55,970 bases of DNA from positions 1 to 55,970 of the IMG/VR virus record IMGVR_UViG_3300015241_000004. The stretch is one strand, 5' to 3'. A program made the position numbers and the translations under genes. The notes under the pieces are model-generated. The model saw only the letters and a list, made by a program, of their open reading frames with translations. It was not told where the DNA came from and searched no databases. Below, one piece after another: positions 16,272 through 36,097 of the stretch; positions within the stretch are counted from its first letter, which is position 1; the number at the start of each line of letters is the position of its first letter. This stretch comes from a virus.

Positions 16272-16577
16272 TCAGTTGGCGAGAAGAGCGCTTCGTTCCT
16301 CTTGCTGCTTACTCAGCATATCCAGCGCCTTTTGCAGCGCGTCGATCAGCATGATCGCGGCTTGCGGCGAACAACGTATGTGTGCCGCACACGACATTTC
16401 GGCGACCACGCTGCCGTCGGGCTTTGGCATCAGGTGCCTTGCTGCAAGTTCAAGTTCGATATTGCCGGCGTAGGTGCCAAATACCGGCGCGTTGTCGAAA
16501 TAGACCAGCGGTGCGGAGGCCGAGTTCTTCAGCATCGGCATTGCGCCCGGCGCGGCCGGTTTTCCTTTGATCGACAT
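16272..16577 (-). CDS. Conserved small protein after portal
   Basis: A 101-residue protein, start coupled to the portal stop. Contains VYFDNAPVFGTYAGNIELEL and EMSCAAHIRCSPQAAIMLID, a small alpha/beta fold with a C-terminal amphipathic helix ending in KQQEERSALLAN. I do not recognise its function; its position suggests a head-assembly accessory. A 188-bp stretch without a gene follows (16084-16271), in which I see no clear signal. Confidence 0.6.
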   Translation of the reverse strand: MSIKGKPAAPGAMPMLKNSASAPLVYFDNAPVFGTYAGNIELELAARHLMPKPDGSVVAEMSCAAHIRCSPQAAIMLIDALQKALDMLSKQQEERSALLAN

Positions 16578-18562
16578 CAGGCCGCGCCTGCGCCAATTGG
16601 CGCACCCTGCCCGGCTTGCGGCGGCGGGTTGAGGAACGGCGCCATGATCTTATGGGCTTCAAACAGTGAATCCCGCACGAATTCATGCGCCGATAGTTCA
16701 CGCATGTCCGTCTGATGCCCGATGCCGGCGCGCTTCTCTTCGGCGGTAGCCGCGGCCTGGTCGGCGCCGGCCAGCGTCTTTTGCGTCTCGGCAGCTTGTT
16801 TCGCGTTCTTGCCGGCGAGGCCTTCCAGATGCAGCCGCTTGACGGCTTCGGCGATCGGGTCCGGCGGCTTCTGCTGTGGCTGCATCATTTTCAGAATGCG
16901 GTCCTTCTCCGAGCGCGGCAGATGCGGATTCATCTCGATCAGGACCTGCGGCGGGAAGGTGCCGGGCGGGTAGCCCTTGAGCATGTCGTAGGTCTCATCC
17001 ATCATCGAGATCACGTCCGGGCCTTCGTCGAGCACGATGTTCACGTCGAGCGAGCCGACCGCGTTGACGATCGTGGGACGGCCCCATTCGTCAACGTCGA
17101 GCCCGTTCAACTGGATGAACTGCGCGATCTTCTCGTTGGAGTTGACGCGAATCCAGCGCTCTGCGGTCCAATGCCGGGAGACCGCGTTCCAGATTTTTCG
17201 ATAGAGCCCAAGCTTGAACGCCCGATGCGCCAGCACGAACGGCCCGAGTTCGGCCATGCCAGGCTCGCGCAACAATTCCAGCGCCCTGCCCGAGATGTTG
17301 CCGACGCCGCCCGGGCCCGTGATGGCCGCGATGTTGGAGTTGGCAAAGCCATCGAGCTCGGCCTTGGCGTCATCGGTAAAGCTCGTGAACGTCGCGATAT
17401 CCGGATGGGTATCATCGACTTTGAACTGCTTCTGCGGATTGATCTCGACGAGCCCGTCGTGGCGCGCCACTTCGCGCCGCGCGATCTCGACGTCATCGAC
17501 CGCACCCTTTTCCATGATGACGCGGCGCGAGTTCGCCAGCGCCAACGTCTTCGACTTGCCTTGATTGAGCGCGTCCTGCGGACCCTTGAAGCCACGCACG
17601 AACGAATAGCGGTCGCCGTCCTGATCGATCGCAGCCGAAAACATCTCGAAAGAGGATTCCGAATTGCCGCGCTCGTCCTTGAAGGGCGAGACGCCCTGAT
17701 CGAGCAACACGTTGGCGACGTAGAACGCCCAGCACCATCGTCCCTTGTGCTTGTACCAGTGTTCGACCATGCGCAGCCGGCGCTCGGTCGAGATGATCCA
17801 CTTCATCTCCCGGTCGGAATTGGTGGTGAGGTCGCTGTCACCCTGGAACAGGCCCTCGAGCAGGTCTTCTTTGCCCGGAAACATCTCGATCGCCGCGTCG
17901 AGATCCATCCACTTCATCAGGCCTTCGTAGCGACTGTCGCGGAAATTGAACTGGTAGGACCGGGGATCATAGAAATATTCGTCGCCGATCACCCAATGCA
18001 GACCAACGTCCGGATCGCCCTTGTCGCCCTTTTGCAGCACCAACTGGATGCCGGCGATGCCTTCAATGCCGGCCTGCAACAATACCACCGGTCCGAGCGC
18101 GTTCTTGAACTGGTTGCCATCGAGCACAGACCGGATCGATTGGGTCGCGATCTCCGCACCCGCCTCCGACTTCGGATCACGCCCTTCTGCCTTGGGGTCA
18201 CAACGCGCACGTTCGACGACGCCGACGATGCCGTTGATCTTGCGCCCGACCCGCGGCCAGATCTGCACGGGTTGATGGCGGGCTTTGAGGATCCGGTATT
18301 GGTCTGCCGTGAGCTGCGCGCCGTGATAATAGCGGCGGGAATCCTTCTGTTCCTCGATCTCATCGACCTTGCTGTCGAGATAGTCCTGCACTTGTACGCG
18401 TAAGGTACGTACCGGCAGGAACATCTCGTCATCGTCGTCAACCACCCGCTCGCGCTTGTCTTCGACCGGATTGTTGTCCTGCCGGTCCCCGACGAGCGGC
18501 GCCAGGCGCGCGTTATCCGCGCGGTCCATGGCGTCGAGAGGGGAATATTCCGTCAGTGGCAT
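16577..18562 (-). CDS. Portal protein, P22 gp1-like
   Basis: A 661-residue protein, close to P22 portal in length (725). The N-terminal region has an acidic stretch (VVDDDDEMFLPVRTLRVQVQ) and the block KDSRRYYHGAQLTADQYRIL that is diagnostic of P22-type portals, followed by VGRKINGIVG and the DPRSYQFNFRDSRYEGLMKW segment. The C-terminus is helical and Gln/Ala-rich. The last residues (QGAPIGAGAA) come from a palindrome copy. Forms the dodecameric DNA channel and binds terminase. Confidence 0.88.
   Translation of the reverse strand: MPLTEYSPLDAMDRADNARLAPLVGDRQDNNPVEDKRERVVDDDDEMFLPVRTLRVQVQDYLDSKVDEIEEQKDSRRYYHGAQLTADQYRILKARHQPVQIWPRVGRKINGIVGVVERARCDPKAEGRDPKSEAGAEIATQSIRSVLDGNQFKNALGPVVLLQAGIEGIAGIQLVLQKGDKGDPDVGLHWVIGDEYFYDPRSYQFNFRDSRYEGLMKWMDLDAAIEMFPGKEDLLEGLFQGDSDLTTNSDREMKWIISTERRLRMVEHWYKHKGRWCWAFYVANVLLDQGVSPFKDERGNSESSFEMFSAAIDQDGDRYSFVRGFKGPQDALNQGKSKTLALANSRRVIMEKGAVDDVEIARREVARHDGLVEINPQKQFKVDDTHPDIATFTSFTDDAKAELDGFANSNIAAITGPGGVGNISGRALELLREPGMAELGPFVLAHRAFKLGLYRKIWNAVSRHWTAERWIRVNSNEKIAQFIQLNGLDVDEWGRPTIVNAVGSLDVNIVLDEGPDVISMMDETYDMLKGYPPGTFPPQVLIEMNPHLPRSEKDRILKMMQPQQKPPDPIAEAVKRLHLEGLAGKNAKQAAETQKTLAGADQAAATAEEKRAGIGHQTDMRELSAHEFVRDSLFEAHKIMAPFLNPPPQAGQGAPIGAGAA
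16589..16604. repeat. Palindrome TGCGCCAATTGGCGCA, copy 2
   Basis: A perfect copy in the last codons of the portal gene, read A-P-I-G-A seven residues or fewer before the stop, so the palindrome extends the portal C-terminus. Confidence 0.85.
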
Positions 18563-18832: not shown

Positions 18833-19129
18833 TCAGGCCCTGCCTTTTGCGAGTTGTTCCTGCCGGATTTCGTGACGCTGATTCATCATCTTCTCGACGA
18901 TTGCGATATCGGTCGAATAGTTGCGCGCCTGCATCACGGGCGTAAAACCATGCTGGTTGATCAACATCCGCCAACCCATCGACAATGAGTCGATCTTGGC
19001 CATAATGTCGGCGCGGTCGTAGTCGTTCTCGCCGCGGTATTCGCTTGGCGTTATTGGCCGAGCAGCCATGTTGCGTTCGCGTAAGCGGACCATGCGCCAG
19101 TAGGATCGACCGCCGCGGCGCATCGCCAT
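18833..19129 (-). CDS. Small basic protein, unknown
   Basis: 98 residues; the start overlaps the ATP-grasp stop (TGATG). Strongly basic N-terminus (MRRGGRSYWRMVRLRERN) followed by two helices (DRADIMAKIDSLSMGWRMLI and IAIVEKMMNQRHEIRQEQLA). An in-frame ATG at 19069 is an alternative start. Part of the block between terminase and portal; function unknown. Confidence 0.55.
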   Translation of the reverse strand: MAMRRGGRSYWRMVRLRERNMAARPITPSEYRGENDYDRADIMAKIDSLSMGWRMLINQHGFTPVMQARNYSTDIAIVEKMMNQRHEIRQEQLAKGRA

Positions 19130-20466
19130 CAGCCTCGCGCCATCATCTTGTCGAGCTGCCGGTCCGAAATCTTGCCGGCCTTGTGCAGCTCGCGCGCCTT
19201 GCGCTGGTCTTTCGTTTCCGGCTTGTCGGGCCCGAGCACCTGCTCGAGCTGCTCGCGCGCGATATCGAGCGCGTCGATCGGCTTGTCCAGCAGATGTCCC
19301 TCGACCAGATCGGCGATCCGCTTGACTTCTGCGATCGCTTCATCGGGCGTATCGCCGATCCCGACCACGGCGCCAATCTCGGCGCATCCCGTCCATTGCG
19401 GGATCACGTAGTACTCGCCCTCGATGCAGCAGAAGTTGCGGAGCTTGACGTTCTCTCGCACACTTTCCGGAAACGAAACTTGCATCCAGTTCTCGTCTGC
19501 CCAGTCGGAGATCAAGAGCACTTCCGCACCCCATTTAGCCTTGAAGTCCGGCTCGATCACGATGCCTTCGGCGCCGTACCAGATCACGTCGGCGAGGTTG
19601 CTGATCATGACCTGGTAGAGCTCGTTCGGCGGCGAGCCGGCGCGACAACACGGATCGATCAGATAGGACTTGCCGTCCTTGGTGACGCGAACTTCGGTCG
19701 AGATGAAGCCGCGATAGCCGTAGCGCTTGAGCGCCGGCGCCAGCTTTTCGTTGACGGTCCGTACCGGTTCGGGCAGATCGCGCCAGGCGACCGTCTTCAT
19801 CAGATAGGCTTCGTCCTTGACCTCGACGCCGGTCATGGCGCCCTTCGGGTACTTGCCGTCGATGCAGTAGCCGTCATAGCCGGTCTCAACCGCATCGTTG
19901 ATGCCTTGCTCGACGGTGAACTTCATCACCTTCTTCAGCGCGCCGAGATTGTGTTCGAGTTCGTCCAGACGAACCTCGACCTTCTCGTAAGACTTGGCGC
20001 CGAAGGTTTCCATGTCGCCGCGGGTGCCGGAGATTTTCACCCACTGGTCGTCATTGGCCTTGAGATGCTTGCGCAGCGCGTCGAGCCCCGTGATCACCTT
20101 GTAGGGCCCGACGTCGATGCCGAGCTTTTTGGATGTTTCCTTCGAGGTCGGGCGGTCGATCTCGAGTTCGGCGCCGAGCCGGCAGCCCCACACCCGCTTG
20201 CCCTGCGAGGCCAGCCACTCCTGCAGATCGCCCTCGTAAACGTCGGGGAAAATCCAGATGTCGATCTCGTCGAAATGAGCCCATGGCGATGCGACGCGCT
20301 CGACGCCATCGATGCCTTCGCCGATCATCAGCGCGTTGGACTTCGGCATACCCGAGGTCCATGGCACGTAGTAGAGCATGCGACCGAAATCCTTGGCGAG
20401 CGTCACGGCGATCTCGGTAAAGATGCCGTTGTCCCAGACCAGCGCGGTTTTGGATTTGAGGCTCAT
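19129..20466 (-). CDS. ATP-grasp ligase-like protein
   Basis: A 445-residue protein with the overall plan of ATP-grasp carbon-nitrogen ligases such as PurD: an N-terminal alpha/beta domain (residues 1-85), an ATP-grasp core (about 90-330) with the nucleotide-binding segment WVKISGTRGDMETFGAKSYE and the acidic metal-site region FISTEVRVTKDGKSYLIDP followed by NEL, and a C-terminal domain. It is not a housekeeping PurD: sequence identity to the consensus motifs is loose. ATP-grasp enzymes join a carboxylate to an amine; the substrate here is unknown. It lies five bases after an AdoMet-decarboxylase-like gene and upstream of portal, so modification of a virion protein or DNA-linked group is conceivable. 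Confidence 0.65.
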   Translation of the reverse strand: MSLKSKTALVWDNGIFTEIAVTLAKDFGRMLYYVPWTSGMPKSNALMIGEGIDGVERVASPWAHFDEIDIWIFPDVYEGDLQEWLASQGKRVWGCRLGAELEIDRPTSKETSKKLGIDVGPYKVITGLDALRKHLKANDDQWVKISGTRGDMETFGAKSYEKVEVRLDELEHNLGALKKVMKFTVEQGINDAVETGYDGYCIDGKYPKGAMTGVEVKDEAYLMKTVAWRDLPEPVRTVNEKLAPALKRYGYRGFISTEVRVTKDGKSYLIDPCCRAGSPPNELYQVMISNLADVIWYGAEGIVIEPDFKAKWGAEVLLISDWADENWMQVSFPESVRENVKLRNFCCIEGEYYVIPQWTGCAEIGAVVGIGDTPDEAIAEVKRIADLVEGHLLDKPIDALDIAREQLEQVLGPDKPETKDQRKARELHKAGKISDRQLDKMMARG

Positions 20467-20470
20467 CGGC

Positions 20471-20851
20471 TCACTTCAAATCGAGTTCGTGATAAAACCG
20501 CCGCGACGGATGCAAAACCACCTTCAGGCCGAACCGCTCCGCGACTAGATCAATGTCAGCCGTGTAATAGGAGCGGCACGAGCAGACGAGCAGGTATGCG
20601 CCGTGGTGGTCCGCCCAGGTATCGAGTGCCAGAAAGGATTCCGTGACGGGCAGTACGATGGTCTGGCCACTGCCGCCCTTGCCGTCGAGCGCCGGATAGG
20701 TCCAGACCTTGGCCTCATCCACCGCCGACATGCCGATCGCCTTTGCAACTTCGGCGAGGAATTCCAGCCAACGCGCTGGCGTCAATACGCCCTGCAGAAC
20801 CAGTCCCGCCGAATGCATCCGCGTTCCGAGAACAGGTTCGGCATAGCCCAC
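20471..20851 (-). CDS. S-adenosylmethionine decarboxylase-like protein
   Basis: A 126-residue protein (GTG start at 20851; an ATG at 20818 is possible). Residues 62-95 hold GSGQTIVLPVTESFLALDTW followed by GAYLLVCSC. This parallels the self-cleaving core of bacterial AdoMet decarboxylases (ESH-LSIHTWPE…TCG): the Glu-Ser cleavage pair and a downstream Cys are kept, but the usual His after Ser is Phe. Length is near that of class 1b enzymes. Such enzymes make decarboxylated AdoMet for polyamines using a pyruvoyl group. Whether this copy processes itself is uncertain. It is followed by the ATP-grasp gene. Confidence 0.5.
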   Translation of the reverse strand: MGYAEPVLGTRMHSAGLVLQGVLTPARWLEFLAEVAKAIGMSAVDEAKVWTYPALDGKGGSGQTIVLPVTESFLALDTWADHHGAYLLVCSCRSYYTADIDLVAERFGLKVVLHPSRRFYHELDLK

Positions 20852-20852
20852 C

Positions 20853-21026
20853 TCAGTAATCCTTCAGGTGGCGCTTGGCGGCCTTTTCGGAGATCATGCC
20901 GCGCTTGATCGCGCGCTTGGCACCCTTGCGAACCACGGACTTCTTCGCAGCGCCGGATACTTCGCGGGTGACCTTGTCGCCGAAATCGACGGGCTTGTTG
21001 TTTGGTGCCGTTGTGGTGTCAGACAT
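20853..21026 (-). CDS. Small basic Lys/Arg-rich protein
   Basis: 57 residues; start coupled by TGATG at 21026. After an acidic-neutral beginning (MSDTTTAPNNKPVDFGDKVT) the C-terminal half is very basic (AAKKSVVRKGAKRAIKRG). Could bind DNA or the acidic scaffold. Part of a string of very small overlapping genes between terL and the AdoMet-decarboxylase-like gene. Confidence 0.6.
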   Translation of the reverse strand: MSDTTTAPNNKPVDFGDKVTREVSGAAKKSVVRKGAKRAIKRGMISEKAAKRHLKDY

Positions 21027-21163
21027 CAGAGCCTCGCCATCTGCCACGCCAACCGCGCAGCCTTGAACGGTCCAAAATGCATGCGGCGATAGCCGAGATA
21101 GATGCAGACAATGCGCTGTAAGAACGGACGGCGACGCAAGTGGATGGTATTGGTGTCAGCCAT
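21026..21163 (-). CDS. Very small basic protein
   Basis: 45 residues from an ATG at 21163 with GGGGAAG upstream. Sequence is Arg-rich with a hydrophobic-aromatic centre (LQRIVCIYLGYRRMHFGPFK). Its start overlaps the end of a 40-residue acidic gene by eight bases. Unknown function; the tight overlaps on both sides are the main support. Confidence 0.5.
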   Translation of the reverse strand: MADTNTIHLRRRPFLQRIVCIYLGYRRMHFGPFKAARLAWQMARL

Positions 21164-21278
21164 CGTCATCTTCCCCATGCGGATCGAAGCTTTCGTCGTC
21201 GCAGATGTCGCGCCATTCGTCCGGATCGTCGGCGTCGAGATCGTCAACCGGAAGCGCGCCGCCCGCGTCTTCCGGCAT
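21156..21278 (-). CDS. Very small acidic protein
   Basis: 40 residues from an ATG at 21278 that overlaps the stop of the upstream gene (TGATG). About 18 of 40 residues are Asp or Glu (VDDLDADDPDEW, ICDDESFD, HGEDDDG). It ends eight bases into the next gene. The charge is opposite to that of the next two small proteins, so a small complex is possible. Short length makes this tentative; the coupling pattern is the evidence. Confidence 0.45.
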   Translation of the reverse strand: MPEDAGGALPVDDLDADDPDEWRDICDDESFDPHGEDDDG

Positions 21279-21595
21279 CAACTGGCGAGCAGCGCCTTCA
21301 GCTCGGACACCATCGCGAGCGTCATCGGCGAGTTGGTGCTGACCGCGTGTTCGAAGCTTGCCAGCAGCGCCTTGCTGCGCTCGGCCCGGTCATCGTTGGA
21401 TGCCTTCAGCGCCTCGGTGTTGCGATCGATCTGGGCATTCGCGGAAGCCAGCGCCTTCTCGGTCACGCTCTTGGCGTCGATTGCTGCGGCCAGCTGCGCT
21501 TGCAAATCGGCGATGTTGCCGTGCAGTTCCTTCTCGGATGCGGCGATGTCGGAAGCCGCAGATACGGTTGCGGCGGGTTGGGTTTCATCGGTCAT
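21278..21595 (-). CDS. Coiled-coil protein downstream of terminase
   Basis: 105 residues; start at 21595 chosen for GAGGAGAG upstream. Residues 20-75 form a continuous predicted coiled coil (SEKELHGNIADLQAQLAAAI and beyond, with regular Leu/Ala heptads). No enzymatic motif. It lies 11 bases after terL and starts the small-gene string. Possible head-assembly factor. Confidence 0.6.
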   Translation of the reverse strand: MTDETQPAATVSAASDIAASEKELHGNIADLQAQLAAAIDAKSVTEKALASANAQIDRNTEALKASNDDRAERSKALLASFEHAVSTNSPMTLAMVSELKALLAS

Positions 21596-21605
21596 CACAC
21601 TCTCC

Positions 21606-23144
21606 TCAAATCGTGGCGGTTGATTCATCGTAACGTTCATCGCGCGCTTCGCGGAAGGCGTCGCGCTTCTGGCCCTCGTCTTTCGGCAACGACTTGATCC
21701 AGGGGCGGGATAGACACGCATAGCGGCCATCGTCGGCGGCGTGATCTTCGGCATCGGTATCGAGATCTTCAGCGCGGTTCTTGTCGTGCTGCAGGACCGG
21801 AACCGTCCGGATGAAGTCACTGCACGTTGAAAACACATATAAGGCCGGACGCCCGGTCGACCAGTTGATCGAACCGTCTTCGAGACGCTTGGCCGTTCCG
21901 ACCAACCGCGATCGCATCTGATCCCAACCACCCATCGCGCCGGCCTTTTCGCGATCTCCCGTCTGTCGGGTAACGCGCGCGTTGTCGGCTCGTATAAAGC
22001 TCGCAAGCTTTGCGGTTTCGGCGAGCAACTCATCATTGATGCGCTCAGCTATCGACGGGCCGCCGTCTTCGGCGAATGCGGACGGATCGAGCACGCCGTA
22101 GCTGAGTTTACTGCGGTCGTCGCGTTCGCGGCTTACAATACCCCTACCAACCTGTTCGGCAGTTAGCTTGCCGCCAACCGCGCCATACCACTCGCGGTAC
22201 CGAACGAGGGACCCGCGCGGAATGACGCGCCCGTCCGGTAACCTAAAGTCTTCGCCAGCGACCGCCCACCATCCGATAGAAAAAGGCGCGTACGACCCCC
22301 AGTCACCGGACCGAAACCGCAACCAATGTCCCGGGATCAAGAACGGTGCGACGACGTGCTGTTCGTTGCTCCATTCGGCAAAGAATGCGCCTTCGATGGC
22401 GGTCCAGTCGCCTTCCAGCCAGGCTTTGACGAGCTGAGCAGAGCCAACCAGATGAAGCCGCGAGATGTAGCCGGGATCACTATTGAGCAGGATGCGGTTA
22501 TTGGATATCCGCGACGGGATCACGGCAATCCGATGCTCATCGCCGTTCGGCAGCTTGCGGCGCAACACCTTCGGATGCAGCGGAAACGGATGCAGTTGGT
22601 AGCGTTGCCGGATCCAGTGCTGCCCGGCACCGCCGGGGTTGGCGGTCAGGATCAGTTGAACGGGAACACTGTGCGCGGAACGTAAGACGCCGAACAGCCG
22701 CTCGATCGGAGCCGGGGCAGGATACTGGCCGGCTTCCTCAACCCACGCATCGGTGACGTTGCGGCCCTGGTATTCATCGGCATCCTGCACGCTTTCGAGA
22801 TACTTGAACCGGACCTTGCCGCCGTTTGGCATCAGCCATCCGCGATTTTCGATGTAGCGGCCACCCAGCGGGGTGTAGATTTCCTTGGAGCGGTCGATTG
22901 CATCTTCGGCAGAGACCGACGTTCGGCGAAACATGATGGCGTTGAAGTGTGCGCCGTAGCGGCGTTCTTTCAACGCCCATTTGCCCAGAACGCCATCGGT
23001 CTTGCCGCCGCCTCGGGCACCGCCGAACAGGACTTCTGCAAACGGGCAACAACACAGGTCGTCTTGCGGGCCTTCCTGTGGCGACCAGGAACGGTCGCGG
23101 TCGTGGGCCACATGGGCATCGACCAGCGGCGCAGGAACGTTCAT
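21606..23144 (-). CDS. terL: Terminase large subunit
   Basis: A 512-residue packaging motor. Residues 41-49 (GGARGGGKT) are the Walker A loop; residues 130-139 (VTDAWVEEAG) are Walker B with the catalytic Glu; LTANPGG near residue 166 is the coupling motif. The C-terminal RNase H-type nuclease shows its acidic residues in SGDWGS, VLDPSAFAED and EDHAADDGRYA. It begins four bases after terS ends. It cuts and pumps DNA through the portal. Confidence 0.92.
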   Translation of the reverse strand: MNVPAPLVDAHVAHDRDRSWSPQEGPQDDLCCCPFAEVLFGGARGGGKTDGVLGKWALKERRYGAHFNAIMFRRTSVSAEDAIDRSKEIYTPLGGRYIENRGWLMPNGGKVRFKYLESVQDADEYQGRNVTDAWVEEAGQYPAPAPIERLFGVLRSAHSVPVQLILTANPGGAGQHWIRQRYQLHPFPLHPKVLRRKLPNGDEHRIAVIPSRISNNRILLNSDPGYISRLHLVGSAQLVKAWLEGDWTAIEGAFFAEWSNEQHVVAPFLIPGHWLRFRSGDWGSYAPFSIGWWAVAGEDFRLPDGRVIPRGSLVRYREWYGAVGGKLTAEQVGRGIVSRERDDRSKLSYGVLDPSAFAEDGGPSIAERINDELLAETAKLASFIRADNARVTRQTGDREKAGAMGGWDQMRSRLVGTAKRLEDGSINWSTGRPALYVFSTCSDFIRTVPVLQHDKNRAEDLDTDAEDHAADDGRYACLSRPWIKSLPKDEGQKRDAFREARDERYDESTATI

Positions 23145-24492: not shown

Positions 24493-25164
24493 CTATCTCG
24501 CCATTCCAGCGGCAGGGTCCGCTGTAACTGGCTCGATCCGGTCCGCCGTCGTCTTGACGCGAACCGTGCGCTTCATGATTTCCATCAGTAGGCTGATTCG
24601 TCCATCATCGTCTATGTCGGCGACGACGCCGCGGCGTCCACCCAACACCTCTTCCACCAAAAACCTGACGGTTTCGCCCACTTTCGGGATGTAAACCGGA
24701 GCGTTTTTGCGGCCTTTTTTGCGATAATACATCTCGCGCTCGCCGGCTTCGATGTACTGGATCACCTGCATGGCGATCGGCCGCACGATGGCAAAATCCT
24801 CACCGAACTTCATGAATGGGTTGGAGAGCATGCCCGGGGTGGAGCGGATGCAGTCATGCTTTGCTTCGACGACCTTTTCGCTGACCAGGATCATCCGGGG
24901 AAACAGCGGCATCGCAACGTCAGGATGATCCTCGCCTTCGGCATGCCGGCGCGCCGAAATGCGGGCTGCTCTAAGGATCGTCGGCAGGTAGAACGGAACC
25001 TTGCGAAGGATCAGGTTGGCTTGAGCCGTCATCTCGCGGCCGGGCTCCGTGTGCAGGATGAAATAGGTGGCATCTGGCGCTGGCGTCAGATCGATCGTTT
25101 CCTCGATCGGCACGTAGCCGACGAACTGGCCGATTTTGTACAGGGTTGGTGCGCTGGTAGCCAT
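24493..25164 (-). CDS. NusG-like (NGN-KOW) transcription factor
   Basis: 223 residues from the ATG at 25164, preceded by GGAGGG at ideal spacing; an in-frame GTG at 25185 overlaps the upstream stop and is an alternative. The region YFILHTEPGREMTAQANLIL with a later FPRMILVSE matches the NGN domain, which binds the RNA polymerase clamp. The C-terminal block beginning IPKVGETVRFLVEEVLGGRR and continuing GVVADIDDDGRISLLMEI is a KOW domain. NusG paralogues such as RfaH make polymerase read through terminators. Its place just ahead of tandem terminators and the late operon suggests the late antiterminator. Confidence 0.75.
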   Translation of the reverse strand: MATSAPTLYKIGQFVGYVPIEETIDLTPAPDATYFILHTEPGREMTAQANLILRKVPFYLPTILRAARISARRHAEGEDHPDVAMPLFPRMILVSEKVVEAKHDCIRSTPGMLSNPFMKFGEDFAIVRPIAMQVIQYIEAGEREMYYRKKGRKNAPVYIPKVGETVRFLVEEVLGGRRGVVADIDDDGRISLLMEIMKRTVRVKTTADRIEPVTADPAAGMAR

Positions 25165-25181
25165 GCTTTTGCCCTCCGTTT

Positions 25182-26357
25182 TCACTTGAAATCCGCCAGT
25201 TCCGCCTCGTTCATTTCGCCCGCCGGGCTAGCCTCGGCTGTGTAGATTTTGCCCGTGACCGACGGTGCCCATGGCCAGGGCACGCGATCGCCTTCCTTGA
25301 AGTGTTTGCGAACCGCGATCGACACGGTTTCGCGCAACAGCGCTTCCCATGAACCGGCGCCTTGGCGCGTCGCGATCACCCATTCCGAAGCGGGCGGTAT
25401 CTGCGCCAGCGCCAGCAGTTGCGGCGTCATCGGTTTGCGGTACGATACGCCATCGGAACGGGCGTAGATCGCGCGGAACCCTTGGGCACAGCCGGCGATC
25501 TCGTGCAGCGCCATCAGCGCCTTGGCCTCGATGCTGTCGCGGGCGAACACTGCGTTCGGCGCGATGCCAGCCGCTTTCTGCGCCTCCAGCAGCGTCCAGC
25601 GTTTTTGCTCGAGGTAGTTCCAGCCTGCCGGAACGTTTTTCCGCCCGAGGCGTTTGAGATTTTCGAGGAACGGCATGATGCCGGCGAGCGCATCGACCTC
25701 CTCGGGCTCCGTCAGCGCTTCGGCGGCATAGGCGGTTCGCTGGCGATCATCCGCAGCCGCTGTTGGCCACCTCGCTTCGAACGAATTCAGGAATTTTACT
25801 TTTCGATCCTTCGCGCGCGCATCTCTCTCACGTTCAATGAGGGGACGTTCTAAGGGGACGTTCTTGGTGCCAACGTATGGATTGGCACCCGTGCCATCCC
25901 ATGCATTGGCACCCGGGTGCTGATCTGTTGGCACCCCCTCCTCTGAATTCTGGGGGGTGCCAACCGGTTGGCACCCCCCCTCTTCGGATACGGTTTCTGC
26001 ATGGCTCGGCTCGGTCTCTTCATCTGCGTCCGGGGTGATGCTTTCGAAGGCATAATCGTCGCGATCGAGCAATACGCGATATGCATAGGAGCGCGACGGA
26101 CGGCCGCCGGCCTCCTCGACCTCGATATCTCGCCGCTTTTTTTCGACCCATTTTGCTTCATAGAGCCGTTCCAGCGAATTTTGTAAGGAGGCGCGGGAAC
26201 ACGAAATCTCGCTTGCCATCTTCACTTGGCTGCGCGTGCACCATCCGGCCTTGTCGGTATGACGGCCCAACAGGCAGAGCACCTGAAGGTCGCGCGGTTC
26301 CAGCGAACGATCGGTGACGGCGCCGGCTGGGATGATGGAAAAACGGGGGTGGCTCAA
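25182..26357 (-). CDS. Winged-helix DNA-binding protein, possible replication initiator
   Basis: About 391 residues from a TTG at 26357 that overlaps the upstream stop (TTGA); the open frame extends further upstream but without natural-looking sequence. Residues 1-85 (SHPRFSIIPAGAVTDRSLEP then CLLGRHTDKAGWCTRSQVKM) form a MarR/replication-type winged helix. The middle is acidic and low-complexity, the C-terminus is mixed alpha/beta (WEALLRETVSIAVRKHFKEG). Proteins of this layout in alphaproteobacterial phages are usually taken as replication proteins; that is inference. No primase or helicase motif is seen. Confidence 0.6.
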   Translation of the reverse strand: MSHPRFSIIPAGAVTDRSLEPRDLQVLCLLGRHTDKAGWCTRSQVKMASEISCSRASLQNSLERLYEAKWVEKKRRDIEVEEAGGRPSRSYAYRVLLDRDDYAFESITPDADEETEPSHAETVSEEGGCQPVGTPQNSEEGVPTDQHPGANAWDGTGANPYVGTKNVPLERPLIERERDARAKDRKVKFLNSFEARWPTAAADDRQRTAYAAEALTEPEEVDALAGIMPFLENLKRLGRKNVPAGWNYLEQKRWTLLEAQKAAGIAPNAVFARDSIEAKALMALHEIAGCAQGFRAIYARSDGVSYRKPMTPQLLALAQIPPASEWVIATRQGAGSWEALLRETVSIAVRKHFKEGDRVPWPWAPSVTGKIYTAEASPAGEMNEAELADFK

Positions 26358-29480: not shown

Positions 29481-31451
29481 TCAGCCTCCGCTAGGTTGCT
29501 GTCGTCGAGGGGGGGGGGGGGTATTGGCCGCGATCAATTCCGCCATGTTGAACAATGGTGGATTGAGTTCATCGAGGGCTTCGGCGCACCGCGGATTGAG
29601 CCAAAGCACTTCGGTTCGATCAAGCGCGCCGTCGGCGTGCGTCTCGACCACCTCGCGGCGCCAGGCGGAAAGCTTCTCTTCATAAAGTGCACTCGAATAT
29701 CCCGAGATTACGATCATCGCGCGCGCCTGCAGCACGCGGTCCAATAGTGCGACATGATCATCGTCAGATAGCTCGAAGGCATAGGCGTGGAACGCGCGTC
29801 CGCCGCGCCGCTTGGCCGAACGGGTTTCCTGCACGTAAGGCGGATCCAGATAAATCAGCGTATCGGCAGCGTCGTACCGCTCGATCACTTGCAGTGCGGG
29901 ACGGCATTCCAACAGCACGCCTTGAATGCGATCAGTGATCGCCTGCAGGGCCCCGGGCATGCCGGGCCACTCGCCCGCAGGCAGCGCGCCACCCCTGTTT
30001 ACGAGCGAGGCCCGAAACCCCGTCGATCTCTCGGAAATAGCAGATGAAGAGCCGTGCCCCATGTAGGAGCGGACGATCAGCCGCCTCGCGCGTTCTATCG
30101 GGTCTTCCGTAGTCTCGAATGCCGAATCGTATTCGTCGCGCGCAAAGGGCGTCAGCACCAGGCGCCGGCACAGCTCGGACGCCATCTCCAAGTCCCGCAA
30201 TACGGCGAAGAGATTCACCAAATTGCCATCGATGTCGTTATAGCACTCGCCGGCCGATCGCGGCTTGCGCAGCAGAACGGACGCCGCGCCGCCGAATGGC
30301 TCAACATAGACCCGATGCGGAGGGAAATGGGAAATGATCCAAGGCGCAAGCCTGAACTTGCCGCCCAGATATCGCAGGACCGGACGCTCAACCTCCCTCG
30401 GATGCGCGTAGACCTTGCCGAAGTCCAGCAGCATCTTTTGCGTTTCCGTGATCGGCTGCGGCTCCCGCCACGCCAGGTCCGTCGCCGCCCGCAATAGCTC
30501 CGACCAATCGTCCTGTGGTTCGGCCGCCATGTCTGCCGCAACCAAGCCTGCGCCAATTGGCGCATCCTCTAAAAGGGTCGAGCCCGCGCCGGATGGGGGC
30601 GCGTGAGGCGCGGGCTCTGATCGCATGGCGCGTGGGGCCGCGTCTGCGATATCGGAAGAAGGGGCGTCCGCGCCGTGGATGCCTGCACTATCAGGCGCGG
30701 ACGCGATCGACGCGGGTTGGCCTATCGCGTCGGGTTGGGATTTCTTTTTTCGTTTCGGTTTGACGGCCGGCGCCTCGCCGCCGATCGGCTCGCCGCGCCC
30801 GTCGATCTTGTCTGCGGTCGCATCGAACTTCTGCCAGTGCGCCTCGATCGCGGCATCCATCCGTTCGTGGCCGGCGCTGCCATAGGCATAGGAGAAGGTT
30901 TCGCCGCAGCTGCAGGTGCCTAAGGTGACCATGTGGCCGTTGATGACGGGGTTGGTCATCGCGAAAGTATGCCCGGCGGGGAAGATTTTGCGGGTGCGGT
31001 GGGTCTCGATCAGGGAGTGGACGATGGGATCGGTTATACCGAGAGTATCTTTTTCGGCGTCGGTAATAGGTTGATTCAAGCTGCCAGCGTGATCGCTGGT
31101 AGAATCTTCGATCACCCTGTCTTCGTCACTTGCGGCAACTTCCCTGCCCGGGTGATCGATAGGCGCTCCCACATCGGCAGTGGCCGCTTGAACCAGCCCT
31201 TCTTCCTTCAACAGCAATGCCCATTCGATGATCCGTCCGGCATAGCCTTCGGTCCATCGTGTTCCTTCGCCATCCTTGGCGCGCATGTAGCGGCGGGCGC
31301 GGCGGATCATCTTTGCGATGCCCTCGCGCAGGTACTGGTTGCGGTCTTCGTCGACATCGATCGACGGCAGCGTGATAGTGACGCCGGGCGAACGCTCGCG
31401 GTCGAAGTAGAAGGTTTCGGGCTGAGAGGTGGCGCGGGCTGTTGCGGTCAT
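29481..31451 (-). CDS. Fusion protein with C-terminal Dam-type N6-adenine methyltransferase
   Basis: 656 residues from the ATG at 31451. Part 1 (to about residue 85) is a helical module ending EWALLLKEEG. Then comes repeat-derived linker (LVQAATADVGAPIDHPG…). Part 2 (about 135-225) has VTLGTCSCGETFSYAYGSAG, a possible metal site. After a second low-complexity linker with a palindrome copy comes a D12-class methyltransferase (from about residue 320): RYLGGKFRLAPWI, VEPFGGAASVLL and the catalytic YLDPPY. It methylates adenine in DNA. An internal ATG at 30530 (MAAEPQDDW) could give a 349-residue methyltransferase alone. The frame is also open upstream to 32720. The C-terminus passes through a C13 tract. 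Confidence 0.75.
   Translation of the reverse strand: MTATARATSQPETFYFDRERSPGVTITLPSIDVDEDRNQYLREGIAKMIRRARRYMRAKDGEGTRWTEGYAGRIIEWALLLKEEGLVQAATADVGAPIDHPGREVAASDEDRVIEDSTSDHAGSLNQPITDAEKDTLGITDPIVHSLIETHRTRKIFPAGHTFAMTNPVINGHMVTLGTCSCGETFSYAYGSAGHERMDAAIEAHWQKFDATADKIDGRGEPIGGEAPAVKPKRKKKSQPDAIGQPASIASAPDSAGIHGADAPSSDIADAAPRAMRSEPAPHAPPSGAGSTLLEDAPIGAGLVAADMAAEPQDDWSELLRAATDLAWREPQPITETQKMLLDFGKVYAHPREVERPVLRYLGGKFRLAPWIISHFPPHRVYVEPFGGAASVLLRKPRSAGECYNDIDGNLVNLFAVLRDLEMASELCRRLVLTPFARDEYDSAFETTEDPIERARRLIVRSYMGHGSSSAISERSTGFRASLVNRGGALPAGEWPGMPGALQAITDRIQGVLLECRPALQVIERYDAADTLIYLDPPYVQETRSAKRRGGRAFHAYAFELSDDDHVALLDRVLQARAMIVISGYSSALYEEKLSAWRREVVETHADGALDRTEVLWLNPRCAEALDELNPPLFNMAELIAANTPPPPRRQQPSGG
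29509..29521. repeat. G13/C13 homopolymer in the methyltransferase gene
   Basis: Thirteen G in a row on the plus strand (C13 in the gene), 26 bases before its stop. With C13 the protein ends PPPPRRQQPSGG. With C12 or C15 it would end LDDSNLAEADA and its TGA would overlap the next ATG by ATGA. Such tracts slip easily; this is a candidate phase-variable tail or an assembly length error. Confidence 0.75.
30549..30564. repeat. Palindrome TGCGCCAATTGGCGCA, copy 3
   Basis: A perfect copy in the linker of the methyltransferase fusion, read A-P-I-G-A (LLEDAPIGAGLVAADM), just before the possible internal start at 30530. Confidence 0.85.
31071..31199. repeat. Divergent full-length dispersed repeat (R8)
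   Basis: It has the family ends TTGATTCA…TTGAACCAGCC and internal GTGATCG boxes, but a diverged centre. It is read through in frame by the methyltransferase fusion (LVQAATADVGAPIDHPG to HAGSLNQ) and lies between two protein modules. Confidence 0.6.
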
Positions 31452-31459
31452 GGATTGCA

Positions 31460-31663
31460 TCCCGAACCGAGCCCAGAGAGTTCGGATCGCATACGCTGCT
31501 TCCAGCGGGACAACGCCGTTGCCGAGCATGCGAAGTCGGTCCACGCGAGCAACGTCCAGCCGGGAGGCCAGCCCATCAGCCACTCGACGAAAAGCGGGTT
31601 CAAGCTCCGGCGCTCTTTCGAGGGCACCCCGCCAACCGGATAGATCGGATGGGCCGGGAGGGA
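31460..31663 (-). pseudogene. C-terminal part of the cytosine methyltransferase in a shifted frame
   Basis: In the frame +1 to the Dcm gene, this stretch encodes FPPGPSDLSGWRGALERAPE… and VDRLRMLGNGVVPLEAAYAI, which is the conserved C-terminal block (motifs IX-X) of C5 methyltransferases. It has no stop before the downstream fusion gene. Removing one T from the T4 run at 31663-31666 would join it to the N-terminal frame as TAFPPGPSD. Confidence 0.65.
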
Positions 31664-32724
31664 AAAGCGGTCGACCGCCTGGCGTCCTCAGACCGTCCTG
31701 CGAAGTCGGCGACGATCCCTTGCGGTTGGTGTTGCCGTTGACCGTCGGCGTTGACCATTGCATCGCTTGCGCCGGCAGCGGCGTCCCGCCCGCTCCAAAG
31801 CTCTGGTTCGGTCCGCCCTTCTCGCCGTCCGTCGCCCTCGGGGTGGACCAGTTCGCCGCAACCCGGCCCAGAAGGCCGTTCTCCGGCACGTTCGCCAGAT
31901 TGCCGGTATCCTTCCAGTCGCGTGAGGTCGGAGTTGGCCAGTTCGACACGGCATCGTCGAGATTGCTGCGACCGCTCTTGATCCGCGCCGCCGCCAATTC
32001 CGGCGACGGAAAACCCCTCCGATCGTCCCCAAGCTTCGCCGACGGAGTCGGCCAAGCCTTCGCCGCTATCGCGAGTGGCGTCCCCATGCCGTTGCCGTTG
32101 ATGCCCTTCGCCTTGATTTCCTGCCGGCGCGCGAAGAACGTTTCCGGCTGCTCGCCATCGTTGCTGACCGCCGCGTCCATTGTCGGCCACAGCGAGGATA
32201 AACAACCGTTCTCTCTTGTGGCTCGCGCCAACCTCTGCCGCCGTAAACAGTCCCGCCTCAACCCGGAAACCCAGTCTTTGTAGGTCACGGCGGACCCGGA
32301 GCGCTCCCGGATCGAGGCCGGGCTTCGCCGAAAGCATGCCGGGGACGTTTTCGATGAGGACGAACCAGGCTCCGGACTGCACGATGATGCGCCGCGCATC
32401 ACTCCAGAGGTCGCGCTCGTCATCGCTGCCGCGTCGTTTTCCGGCGAGGGAATGAGGCTGGCACGGGATGCCGCCAATGACGCCATCCACGAGGCCGCGC
32501 CATGGGCGGCCGTCGAAGGTTCCAACATCGCTCCAAATAGCGGCTTCAGCCAGGAGACCTTTTTGTATCGCGCAGACCAGTTGTGAGGCCGCGAATGCTT
32601 CCCTCTCCACACACACGACTGAGCGAGCATCTGGCATTGCCAGCTCGACGCCGAGATCGAGGCCGCCGCCTCCGGTGCAGAGGCTGATGAGGTTGAAGCG
32701 TCGGGGATGTAGAGCCACATTCAC
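31600..32724 (-). CDS. DNA cytosine-5 methyltransferase, frameshifted before its last motif
   Basis: 374 residues from a GTG overlapping the upstream stop (GTGA). Motif I is LCTGGGGLDLG (15-25), motif IV is GGIPCQPHSLAG with catalytic Cys88, motif VI is IENVPGM (124-130), and motif VIII is SHKRERLF (168-175). After about residue 180 the frame is Arg/Gly-rich and loses homology; motif IX-X (LGNGVVP) lies in the other frame at 31460-31663. So the protein as read lacks the C-terminal segment that closes the fold and is probably inactive unless a +1 frameshift or an assembly error is involved. It could protect phage DNA from host restriction. Confidence 0.75.
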   Translation of the reverse strand: MNVALHPRRFNLISLCTGGGGLDLGVELAMPDARSVVCVEREAFAASQLVCAIQKGLLAEAAIWSDVGTFDGRPWRGLVDGVIGGIPCQPHSLAGKRRGSDDERDLWSDARRIIVQSGAWFVLIENVPGMLSAKPGLDPGALRVRRDLQRLGFRVEAGLFTAAEVGASHKRERLFILAVADNGRGGQQRWRAAGNVLRAPAGNQGEGHQRQRHGDATRDSGEGLADSVGEAWGRSEGFSVAGIGGGADQERSQQSRRCRVELANSDLTRLEGYRQSGERAGERPSGPGCGELVHPEGDGRREGRTEPELWSGRDAAAGASDAMVNADGQRQHQPQGIVADFAGRSEDARRSTAFPSRPIRSIRLAGCPRKSAGA

Positions 32725-34475: not shown

Positions 34476-34739
34476 CTATGGTCCCAACACATGCCGCAAC
34501 GCTTCGAAGTCGCTCAATTCCGCGCGGGCGAAATAGACGATACTGCCATCCGGTGTACTGACGACACGCCGCGTGTAGCGCGTCTGCTTGATCTCGATGG
34601 ATGCCGCTGCAAGCCCGAAGTTTCGGTGTGCGGCGCGCACGGGCACGGTATCTGTCAGCACGACCTCGGCCTGGTCGTCATCGACCTTCTGGACGCGGCC
34701 TTCGTGCGGACCGCCGATTAGTCGGACCCAGAGGCTCAT
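34476..34739 (-). CDS. Small early protein, unknown
   Basis: 87 residues, ATGA-coupled. MSLWVRLIGGPHEGRVQKVD; beta-rich with VVLTDTVPVRAAHRNFGLAA. Similar short ‘GPHxG’ proteins are common in phages. Function unknown. Confidence 0.6.
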   Translation of the reverse strand: MSLWVRLIGGPHEGRVQKVDDDQAEVVLTDTVPVRAAHRNFGLAAASIEIKQTRYTRRVVSTPDGSIVYFARAELSDFEALRHVLGP

Positions 34740-36097
34740 GCGGCTTGCTCCTCACTGTCGATTTCGAGCGACGGTTGCTCCGGCGCTTCGTTCCCCCACG
34801 ATATCCATCCATCCCGCGCCCGCCGCGCGTTCAACTCGACCTTGGGCAGGCTTGGGAAATAATGTTCCGCGATTTCGTACTGGAAATCCGGCTTCTCGGA
34901 ATGATCACCCTTGGGTGCCTCGATCGCTGAATCGAATTGGTCGCCCATCGCGGGGCACGGCACCTTGCCCTTGACGCCGATCAACAGCAGTTCATGCCTG
35001 TCCCGCACCCAAAAACCTGTGCCGATCGAAGGCTTGATCCAGCAGAATTGCGAGACGTAGGTAAAACCCTGTAGCTCCATCACCTTGTGAGCGATCGCCG
35101 AAAACGACGCCGGACACCACATCAGATGGATACAATCTTCCGCGGCGATGCTCATGCGCTCGCGCTGGCGTTCGACGATCGCTTCCGGCGTCGAGGCTTC
35201 CTTGGCCGTGACGTAGTGGTTGGAGGCGTGGCGATCCATCCCGGTTTCCTCCGAGCGCACCTTGAAGTGCCATTCGAAGTCCGAGAGGATCAGGCCGGCC
35301 TTGATATCCGGCAGTGCGCGGATTTTGGCGCCGAGCTTTTGCTCCCGCTCGCCGCGCTTGCGCTTTTTCTCGGCCTGGTCCTCGACGCGGACCTCCTTCG
35401 CGGCTTTACGGATTTCTTTCTTGGCTTCCGCCGTGAGTTTGCCGGCCTCATCGCGGGGGAGCGCGTCGAGAATGGCCTTCTGCTCTTCCGATGGAAGGCG
35501 CGCCAACGCAGCCCCCGTATCGAGCGACACGGGCCCGGTCCTGACCGCCTCCATCAATTCTGGCGTGGCGCCAGCTTCGATGACCGCGGCACGTTCGACG
35601 CTGCGGCGCGGCACATTCATCAGCGTCGAGGCTTCGCCCAGGGAAAGCGGCGACGATCTTTCCTCCGTCGCGTGCTGATCTTGCTCTCCGAAATCAAGCG
35701 AGGGTCCGCCAATTGGCGCAGCCTGCCGCGAATGTTGATTGGCACCAAGCCTTAGCGTTGCGATCGAGGCCGCGATCAACGCCCGTTGCTTGTCGGTGAG
35801 ATCGCGCCGCTCAAGATTTTCGGCGATGACAAATTTGAGCGCGAATTCGTCGGTCCCTGTAAAAATCGCGTAGGCAACCGGCTTTCCGAGTTCGGCGAGT
35901 TCGCGCTCGCGATTGCGGCCGTCGAGGACGAAACCCTTGTGCAGAATGATCGGGTGGTTTTGGCCTTCGGCAAGAGAGGCGCGGAAACTCTCCCGACGTT
36001 CATCCGCCAGCATCGGGAACAGATTTGCGAACGGATGATGCTTCGGGCGCGGGGAGCCCGGCATCAACAAGCCGCCCGCTGCGAGGAAGGGGTTCAT
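34736..36097 (-). CDS. ParB-domain / MT-A70 adenine methyltransferase with variant active site
   Basis: 453 residues. Residues 20-100 form a ParB/Sulfiredoxin-like N-domain (HPIILHKGFVLDGRNRERE, then NLERRDLTDKQRALIAASIA). The second half is MT-A70-like: SFSAIAHKVMELQGFTYVSQ, then WVRDRHELLLIGVKG and ARDGWISWGNEAPEQ. At the catalytic DPPW/DPEW site the sequence is DFEW (273-276), so the proline after Asp is missing. It may be a weak enzyme or a DNA-binding decoy. A palindrome copy lies in the linker (AAPIGGP). It is ATGA-coupled on both sides. Confidence 0.7.
   Translation of the reverse strand: MNPFLAAGGLLMPGSPRPKHHPFANLFPMLADERRESFRASLAEGQNHPIILHKGFVLDGRNRERELAELGKPVAYAIFTGTDEFALKFVIAENLERRDLTDKQRALIAASIATLRLGANQHSRQAAPIGGPSLDFGEQDQHATEERSSPLSLGEASTLMNVPRRSVERAAVIEAGATPELMEAVRTGPVSLDTGAALARLPSEEQKAILDALPRDEAGKLTAEAKKEIRKAAKEVRVEDQAEKKRKRGEREQKLGAKIRALPDIKAGLILSDFEWHFKVRSEETGMDRHASNHYVTAKEASTPEAIVERQRERMSIAAEDCIHLMWCPASFSAIAHKVMELQGFTYVSQFCWIKPSIGTGFWVRDRHELLLIGVKGKVPCPAMGDQFDSAIEAPKGDHSEKPDFQYEIAEHYFPSLPKVELNARRARDGWISWGNEAPEQPSLEIDSEEQAA
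35705..35720. repeat. Palindrome copy 4 (one mismatch)
   Basis: TCCGCCAATTGGCGCA within the ParB-MT-A70 gene, read A-A-P-I-G-G. One base differs from the perfect palindrome. Confidence 0.75.

Follow-up and report, generated by a model that had tools for sequence, protein, structure and literature searches.

Both kinds of enzyme considered here are already known, and so are phage SpeD homologues with a shifted substrate: SpeD homologues of phages and bacteria have turned into arginine or ornithine decarboxylases (PMC9992855, PMC10407285). The pair that we describe consists of SPED, a SpeD homologue, and ATPG, a PurD-like ATP-grasp protein. SPED resembles the class 1b S-adenosylmethionine decarboxylases (AdoMetDC; SpeD, PF02675; 1tlu/1vr7) in its predicted fold, in an active-site stretch that aligns with that of cellular SpeD without gaps, in a Glu-Ser motif, in a hydroxyl residue at the position of Ser55 and in a Cys, but it differs from them by an Asp at the position of His68, by a Pfam score below the cut-off and by its location in the packaging block, and no aminopropyltransferase was found in its phage. 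Like the SpeD-derived arginine and ornithine decarboxylases, it is phage-borne, derived from SpeD and probably not an AdoMet decarboxylase; SPED has ATPG beside it, whereas an ATP-grasp partner is mentioned in neither of the two reports (PMC9992855, PMC10407285). Unlike SPED, a pelagiphage SpeD relative, which belongs to a group reported to be arginine decarboxylases, has His68 in place, and its neighbours are genes of nucleotide metabolism.

ATPG resembles PurD (TIGR00877) in architecture over its whole length and has the ATP-grasp motifs in the same order, but is only 14-17% identical to it, has the GGREHA loop replaced and Cys, Thr or Met in place of the metal-site Asn, and occupies a different genomic role. 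The ATP-grasp/amidoligase clusters of LUZ24-like phages and their kin (PMC3890496; predictions of Iyer et al. 2009) also contain phage ATP-grasp enzymes predicted to make amide-linked products. Those enzymes, of about 290 aa, are encoded in the early region, where their neighbours are amidoligase, glutamine amidotransferase and GGCT-like genes, whereas the PurD-like ATPG has 445 aa and belongs to the late block, next to a SpeD homologue; no amidoligase, glutamine amidotransferase or GGCT-like gene was found among the window proteins scanned, which represent part of its ORFs.

The locus and its distribution

The window, that is the whole stretch of DNA analysed, comprises 55,970 bases (positions 1-55,970 of the IMG/VR virus record IMGVR_UViG_3300015241_000004). 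Among its products are a P22-like portal, the major capsid protein (Phage_capsid_3), a terminase and an integrase of the tyrosine type; with such a gene set the phage is probably temperate. The gene order on the minus strand, as transcribed, is terL, P41, P64, SPED, ATPG, P98, P73, portal (Table 1; P41 is a mechanical ORF, predicted only). An earlier note on this DNA had described two enzyme-like genes five bases apart between terL and portal, with small charged proteins beside them. Both ORFs proved real and the coordinates agree with this position, charged small ORFs flanking the pair on either side; the gap, however, is 4 bases. The SPED start codon is GTG in the window and ATG at the same place in relatives. 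Elsewhere in the window, a NusG-like protein, perhaps a late antiterminator, is encoded upstream of the terminase genes (24493-25185, Pfam NusG E 1.7e-6), and two adenine methyltransferases were found, a large D12-type protein (29481-32720) and an MT-A70 protein (34736-36097).

Table 1. Position of the cassette, of its flanking genes and of predicted functional sites in the window.
Feature	Position	Strand	Evidence
Terminase large subunit (terL), left boundary gene	21606..23144	-	PHROG 979 E 5.4e-24
P41, short acidic ORF, conserved DDPDEWRD motif	21156..21281	-	motif at same place in ~17 loci
P64, small basic protein, C-terminal tail RGMISEKAAKRHL	20853..21047	-	in most related podovirus-type loci
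SPED, 126 aa, AdoMet-decarboxylase fold, predicted self-cleaving pyruvoyl enzyme	20471..20851	-	Pfam, model, Foldseek
SPED Ser72 codon, predicted cleavage/pyruvoyl serine (T. maritima Ser63)	20636..20638	-	Ser 52/52, alignment
SPED Asp77 codon (T. maritima His68, catalytic/processing position)	20621..20623	-	alignment, 52-member count
SPED Cys92 codon (catalytic Cys83 of AdoMetDC)	20576..20578	-	Cys 52/52, alignment
ATPG, 445 aa, PurD-like ATP-grasp ligase (predicted)	19129..20466	-	model, Foldseek, Z 30.6
ATPG metal-site stretch E258-D271, then C273, R275	19654..19695	-	E258/D271/R275 74/74
ATPG C-terminal tail GKISDRQLDKMM, common to P64	19135..19215	-	HMM of small-protein tails
P98, small protein downstream of ATPG, right edge of cassette	18833..19129	-	directly after P64 in L126
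P22-like portal protein, right boundary gene	16577..18562	-	Pfam P22_portal E 9.9e-72

IMG/VR was scanned with each of the two proteins and then with alignments as queries, yielding 159 relatives of ATPG (80 loci kept) and 30 of SPED. Pairing was counted on the distinct ATPG contigs that extend more than 600 bases upstream of the gene (n = 80), SPED being detected by an iterated profile. SPED was present in 56 of these 80 contigs, including all 19 of the nearest, so the co-occurrence across phages that the earlier note had proposed as a check was indeed found, and the same ATPG/SPED order recurs in dozens of independent phage contigs. The other 24 contigs carry ATPG without SPED, which makes SPED an accessory supplier or partner of ATPG that is not strictly required. 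No intact SPED without ATPG was seen among the loci examined: the sole SPED found without ATPG, on a 32.8-kb contig (L103), has an in-frame TAA in the SPED-like gene just before the T-E-S cleavage site (L103:5900-6310). All portal relatives that are at least 54% identical to that of the window and have sufficient sequence upstream come with ATPG, save for one exception (L126), while portals at most 46% identical to it come without ATPG. In the exception, whose portal is 79% identical, the P64 stop codon runs straight to the P98 start, TGACGTCATG (L126:2980-3160), and both SPED and ATPG are missing from this junction; the contig measures 8.5 kb and a copy elsewhere is possible. A chance neighbourhood of the two genes was also considered and is ruled out by their co-occurrence, by their joint loss in L126 and by the decay of the lone copy in L103.

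In several types of phage, ATPG lies in a region of head or packaging genes. The terminase adjoining the cassette (21606-23144) is of two types among close relatives, with 44-48% versus 68-76% identity to that of the window, and portal, capsid and ATPG stay alike while the terminase type differs. This suggests terminase swapping beside a conserved head module, and for the same reason the cassette would track the head module more than the terminase.

The nearest named hosts of cassette phages are Rhizobiales: Bradyrhizobium sp. YR681 has the cassette in a prophage, and a Rhizobiales MAG contains it as well. An Acidobacteriaceae MAG contains a more distant ATPG, without SPED. Two of the 265 Bradyrhizobium genomes examined have the prophage; both carry SPED and ATPG, and in both the prophage gene is the sole AdoMet_dc match. 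An ordinary SpeD was found in 56 other genomes of this set.

Folds, active sites and the shared tail

The window SPED matches the Pfam family AdoMet_dc with E 6.9e-5 and 23.6 bits, under the gathering cut-off of 25. This cut-off is passed by relatives in the same slot (L018, L042, L105, L047, L055, L061); several Asp/Glu-type members are above it, and His-type relatives match at 4.7e-17. These intermediates support the homology of SPED to AdoMet_dc. The AlphaFold2 model, built on an alignment of 15 relatives, has a pLDDT of 90, and its best PDB matches are the AdoMetDC of T. maritima and A. aeolicus (Foldseek E 8.5e-5 to 1vr7; Z 12.6, rmsd 2.4 over 106 residues to T. maritima AdoMetDC 1tlu), the structure of the trypanosome AdoMetDC prozyme being also among the matches. 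SPED thus has a predicted S-adenosylmethionine-decarboxylase fold, as the earlier note had supposed. Some members are longer, with a C-terminal extension of roughly 55-60 residues (L012:2-496 and L014:4880-5431). In Microcystis phage MaAM05, two SpeD homologues lie in tandem, adjoining a spermidine synthase (L124:86-1002), one with the canonical motif, the other divergent with its His kept.

Conservation of SPED, scored over 52 distinct sequences, is low overall (mean column conservation 0.47), and Gly62, Ser72 and Cys92 are invariant (52/52). The aligned sites are named by T. maritima AdoMetDC numbering, His68, Cys83, Trp70 and Glu72. Ser72 is preceded by Glu71 (Glu in 46 of 52 members), which aligns with the general base, and Thr64 provides a hydroxyl residue at the Ser55 position. 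The self-cleavage serine and the catalytic cysteine being kept in all 52 members, SPED looks catalytic. The change that the earlier note had read as loss of the key decarboxylase His to Phe turned out to lie elsewhere: Phe73 aligns with T. maritima His64, a position that varies within the SPED family (F, H, A, L, C or G), and the real replacement is that of His68 by Asp77. Position 77 is Asp or Glu in 45/45 members of the window's clade; of the seven members of the sister clade, six have His there and one has Asp. Every one of the 52 thus has an acid-base residue (D, E or H) at position 77. Of the AdoMet-contact positions Trp70/Glu72, the main clade keeps the Trp (Trp79) and has Asp81 instead of the Glu, and the His-type clade has lost both although its His is kept. 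The roles of Ser63, Glu62 and Ser55, and of human His243, are documented for AdoMetDC, and cofactor formation is slowed in the human H243A mutant (PMC3975893). The change from His68 to Asp could impair processing or catalysis in SPED. A canonical AdoMetDC serving spermidine synthesis is unlikely, His68 being lost and no spermidine synthase (aminopropyltransferase) having been found in seven of the cassette phage records.

By the alignment, Asp or Glu at the His68 position marks a distinct SPED subfamily, and in other phages the same slot is occupied by the second, His-type subfamily. The two clades are well separated in the tree, with cellular SpeD on the His side, whereas their ATPGs are intermixed (AU p 0.055, a borderline value, in a test for a single clade of His-type loci). 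It is therefore likely that the SPED type has been exchanged at least once within the slot.

ATPG gave no significant match in Pfam, PHROGs or NCBIfam, where the PurD family TIGR00877 scored 13.1 bits for a cut-off of 288. Its model (pLDDT 85) corresponds over the full length to glycinamide ribonucleotide synthetase (PurD), which ranks ahead of PurT, PurK and biotin carboxylase (Foldseek E 8e-19 to 2yw2; Z 30.6 across 371 residues to 3lp8). The structure prediction thus agrees with the ATP-grasp identity first proposed and makes ATPG a full-length PurD-like ATP-grasp enzyme; the profile alignment with cellular PurD is also full-length, yet weak (hhalign probability 26%, E 7e-4). The conservation of ATPG amounts to 46-87% identity. 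K144, E215, K217, E258, D271 and R275 are invariant in all 74 homologues compared, and since K144, E258, D271 and R275 are among them ATPG, too, looks catalytic. ATP-grasp enzymes generally have the metal-site motif D/E ... E-x-N-x-R, to be compared with the ATPG stretch from E258 to R275, in which the Asn metal ligand is absent and replaced by Cys273 (C in 58, T in 11 and M in 5 of the 74). The PurD substrate-phosphate loop GGREHA aligns with DNGIFTE, whose D12 is present in 71/74; such a replacement would suit a non-phosphorylated, possibly cationic substrate. In one ATPG gene (L023:1-1833) the metal site is interrupted by an intein-like insert, which falls precisely between P272 and C273. 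The insert has canonical splice-junction residues, starting with CFADDTEIL and ending with VPNHTVYV...SSN before the C, and Pfam Hint_2 matches it only at E 0.19.

The C-terminus of ATPG is common to neighbouring small late proteins. When an HMM of the C-terminal tails of 32 small proteins, P64 and others like it, was run against 1,095 long ORFs, 16 of the 19 matches were ATPG C-termini (best ATPG E 3.5e-7). The common pattern R/K-G-x-I-S-x-K appears in the window as RGMISEKA in ATPG (19135-19215) and GKISDRQ in P64 (20853-20930), a sharing that would befit a docking or oligomerisation motif. In more distant loci, neither P64 nor P41 was found beside ATPG. Other loci have a further small portal-side protein with the tail (e.g. 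L003:6503-6937 and L041:7432-7704). Some tail-bearing small proteins contain four cysteines spaced like those of a high-potential iron-sulfur protein (L031:2708-3028, L032:5191-5511 and L034:5361-5891); that of L031 matches Pfam HIPIP at E 0.0013, below the cut-off.

A candidate late pathway and its alternatives

The earlier note had suggested a pathway in which one enzyme makes an amine and the other joins it to a carboxylate. The folds, the pairing and above all the invariant catalytic residues make this a sound hypothesis; the absence of SPED from 24 of 80 ATPG contigs goes against a strict coupling of the two. SPED and ATPG are probably both active enzymes of one pathway. From the folds, the genetic pairing, the invariant catalytic residues and the position, all of them observed, we infer activities, substrates, order of steps, product and target as follows. 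SPED and ATPG would be transferred together, as an enzyme cassette belonging to the late (head/packaging) block. SPED would cleave itself between Glu71 and Ser72, Ser72 becoming the pyruvoyl cofactor, and would decarboxylate a small amino acid or an AdoMet-like substrate to an amine, with Asp77 taking the acid-base role of His68 and Cys92 ensuring reprotonation. ATPG would use ATP (K144, Mg at E258/D271) to activate a carboxylate and would join the amine to it as an amide. SPED would supply ATPG in most members, and phages with ATPG only would take the amine from the host. The product, which may be a cationic amide in free form or an amine tag attached to a head protein or a small late protein, would serve head assembly or DNA packaging; this place of use is proposed because the cassette has a late position and appears to follow the head module, and because ATPG and small late proteins have a tail in common. 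The late-block position shows timing and not target. We give this late two-step pathway, from amine formation by SPED through amide coupling by ATPG to use in the head, a probability of about 0.45, slightly below even odds. Its most specific form, an amide conjugate dedicated to head assembly in which an unusual amine from an Asp-type pyruvoyl decarboxylase is placed by a new PurD-like ligase onto a head protein or a small packaged polycation, is a speculative proposal that we regard as rather doubtful.

The same genes could serve an auxiliary polyamine supply, SPED (and ATPG) tuning the amine metabolism of the host and the place between terL and portal meaning late expression with no role in the head. 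Phage SpeD homologues with arginine or ornithine decarboxylase activity are known as metabolic genes (PMC9992855), and in the two Bradyrhizobium genomes that contain the prophage pair AdoMet_dc matches nothing but the prophage gene. Against such a supply, ATPG lies among the head or packaging genes of several types of phage, its C-terminal tail is common to a neighbouring small late protein, and no spermidine synthase was found in the seven cassette phage records; we consider it unlikely.

The loss of His68 in the main clade, the presence of the trypanosome prozyme among the fold matches and the fact that intact SPED was never seen without ATPG, whereas ATPG can stand alone, would all fit a SPED that does not decarboxylate but supports or activates ATPG, for which that prozyme would be a parallel in principle. 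A purely structural partner, however, should be able to do without the cleavage serine and the catalytic cysteine, while Ser72 and Cys92 are kept in 52/52 members and no residue but D, E or H occurs at position 77, which makes this role quite improbable. A peptide or protein modification by ATPG, with graspetide-like or RimK-like action on P64 or P41 and SPED making the amine or trimming a tag, seems to us more improbable still. The tail common to P64 and ATPG could dock the two, P41 has its conserved acidic motif and phage ATP-grasp peptide ligases have been predicted (PMC4431377), but the architecture of ATPG is that of PurD, a small-molecule ligase, P64 and P41 were not seen in the more distant ATPG loci, and L126 has P64 without ATPG. 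Attachment of the amine to phage DNA is very improbable: putrescinyl-type DNA bases do occur in other phages, but only adenine methyltransferases (MT-A70, D12) and no hypermodified-base pathway were seen among the proteins scanned, and the cassette lies in the late block, away from the replication genes.

Significance for phage biology

Searches of the open-access literature retrieved no description of the SPED/ATPG pair, of a PurD-like ATP-grasp protein encoded among phage packaging genes, of a SpeD clade that has Asp in place of His68 or of polyamine and ATP-grasp chemistry together in phage heads. No match to ATPG was found in 50,697 GenBank phage records (tblastn, several ATPG queries), and isolate-based annotation has thus missed this family. 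The window SPED had no match in GenBank phages either, and its relatives used as queries retrieved only known SpeD-type phage genes. A BFVD search showed no close viral relative over the full length (best query TM 0.45).

SPED and ATPG represent a two-gene, widely conserved and so far unannotated candidate phage pathway, with two small proteins to work with, and the pair, carried by a family of phages of soil bacteria, suggests from its sequences and models that phage chemistry has a late step so far undescribed. The substrate shifts known for SpeD would be joined by an active site in which the change from His to Asp/Glu is fixed across a clade, and ATPG would add a virus-specific branch to the ATP-grasp enzymes. 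If true, the head-assembly amide conjugate would be a virion-maturation chemistry without described counterpart. The pathway might show that some phages finish their heads chemically, or neutralise their packaged DNA, with a product of their own.
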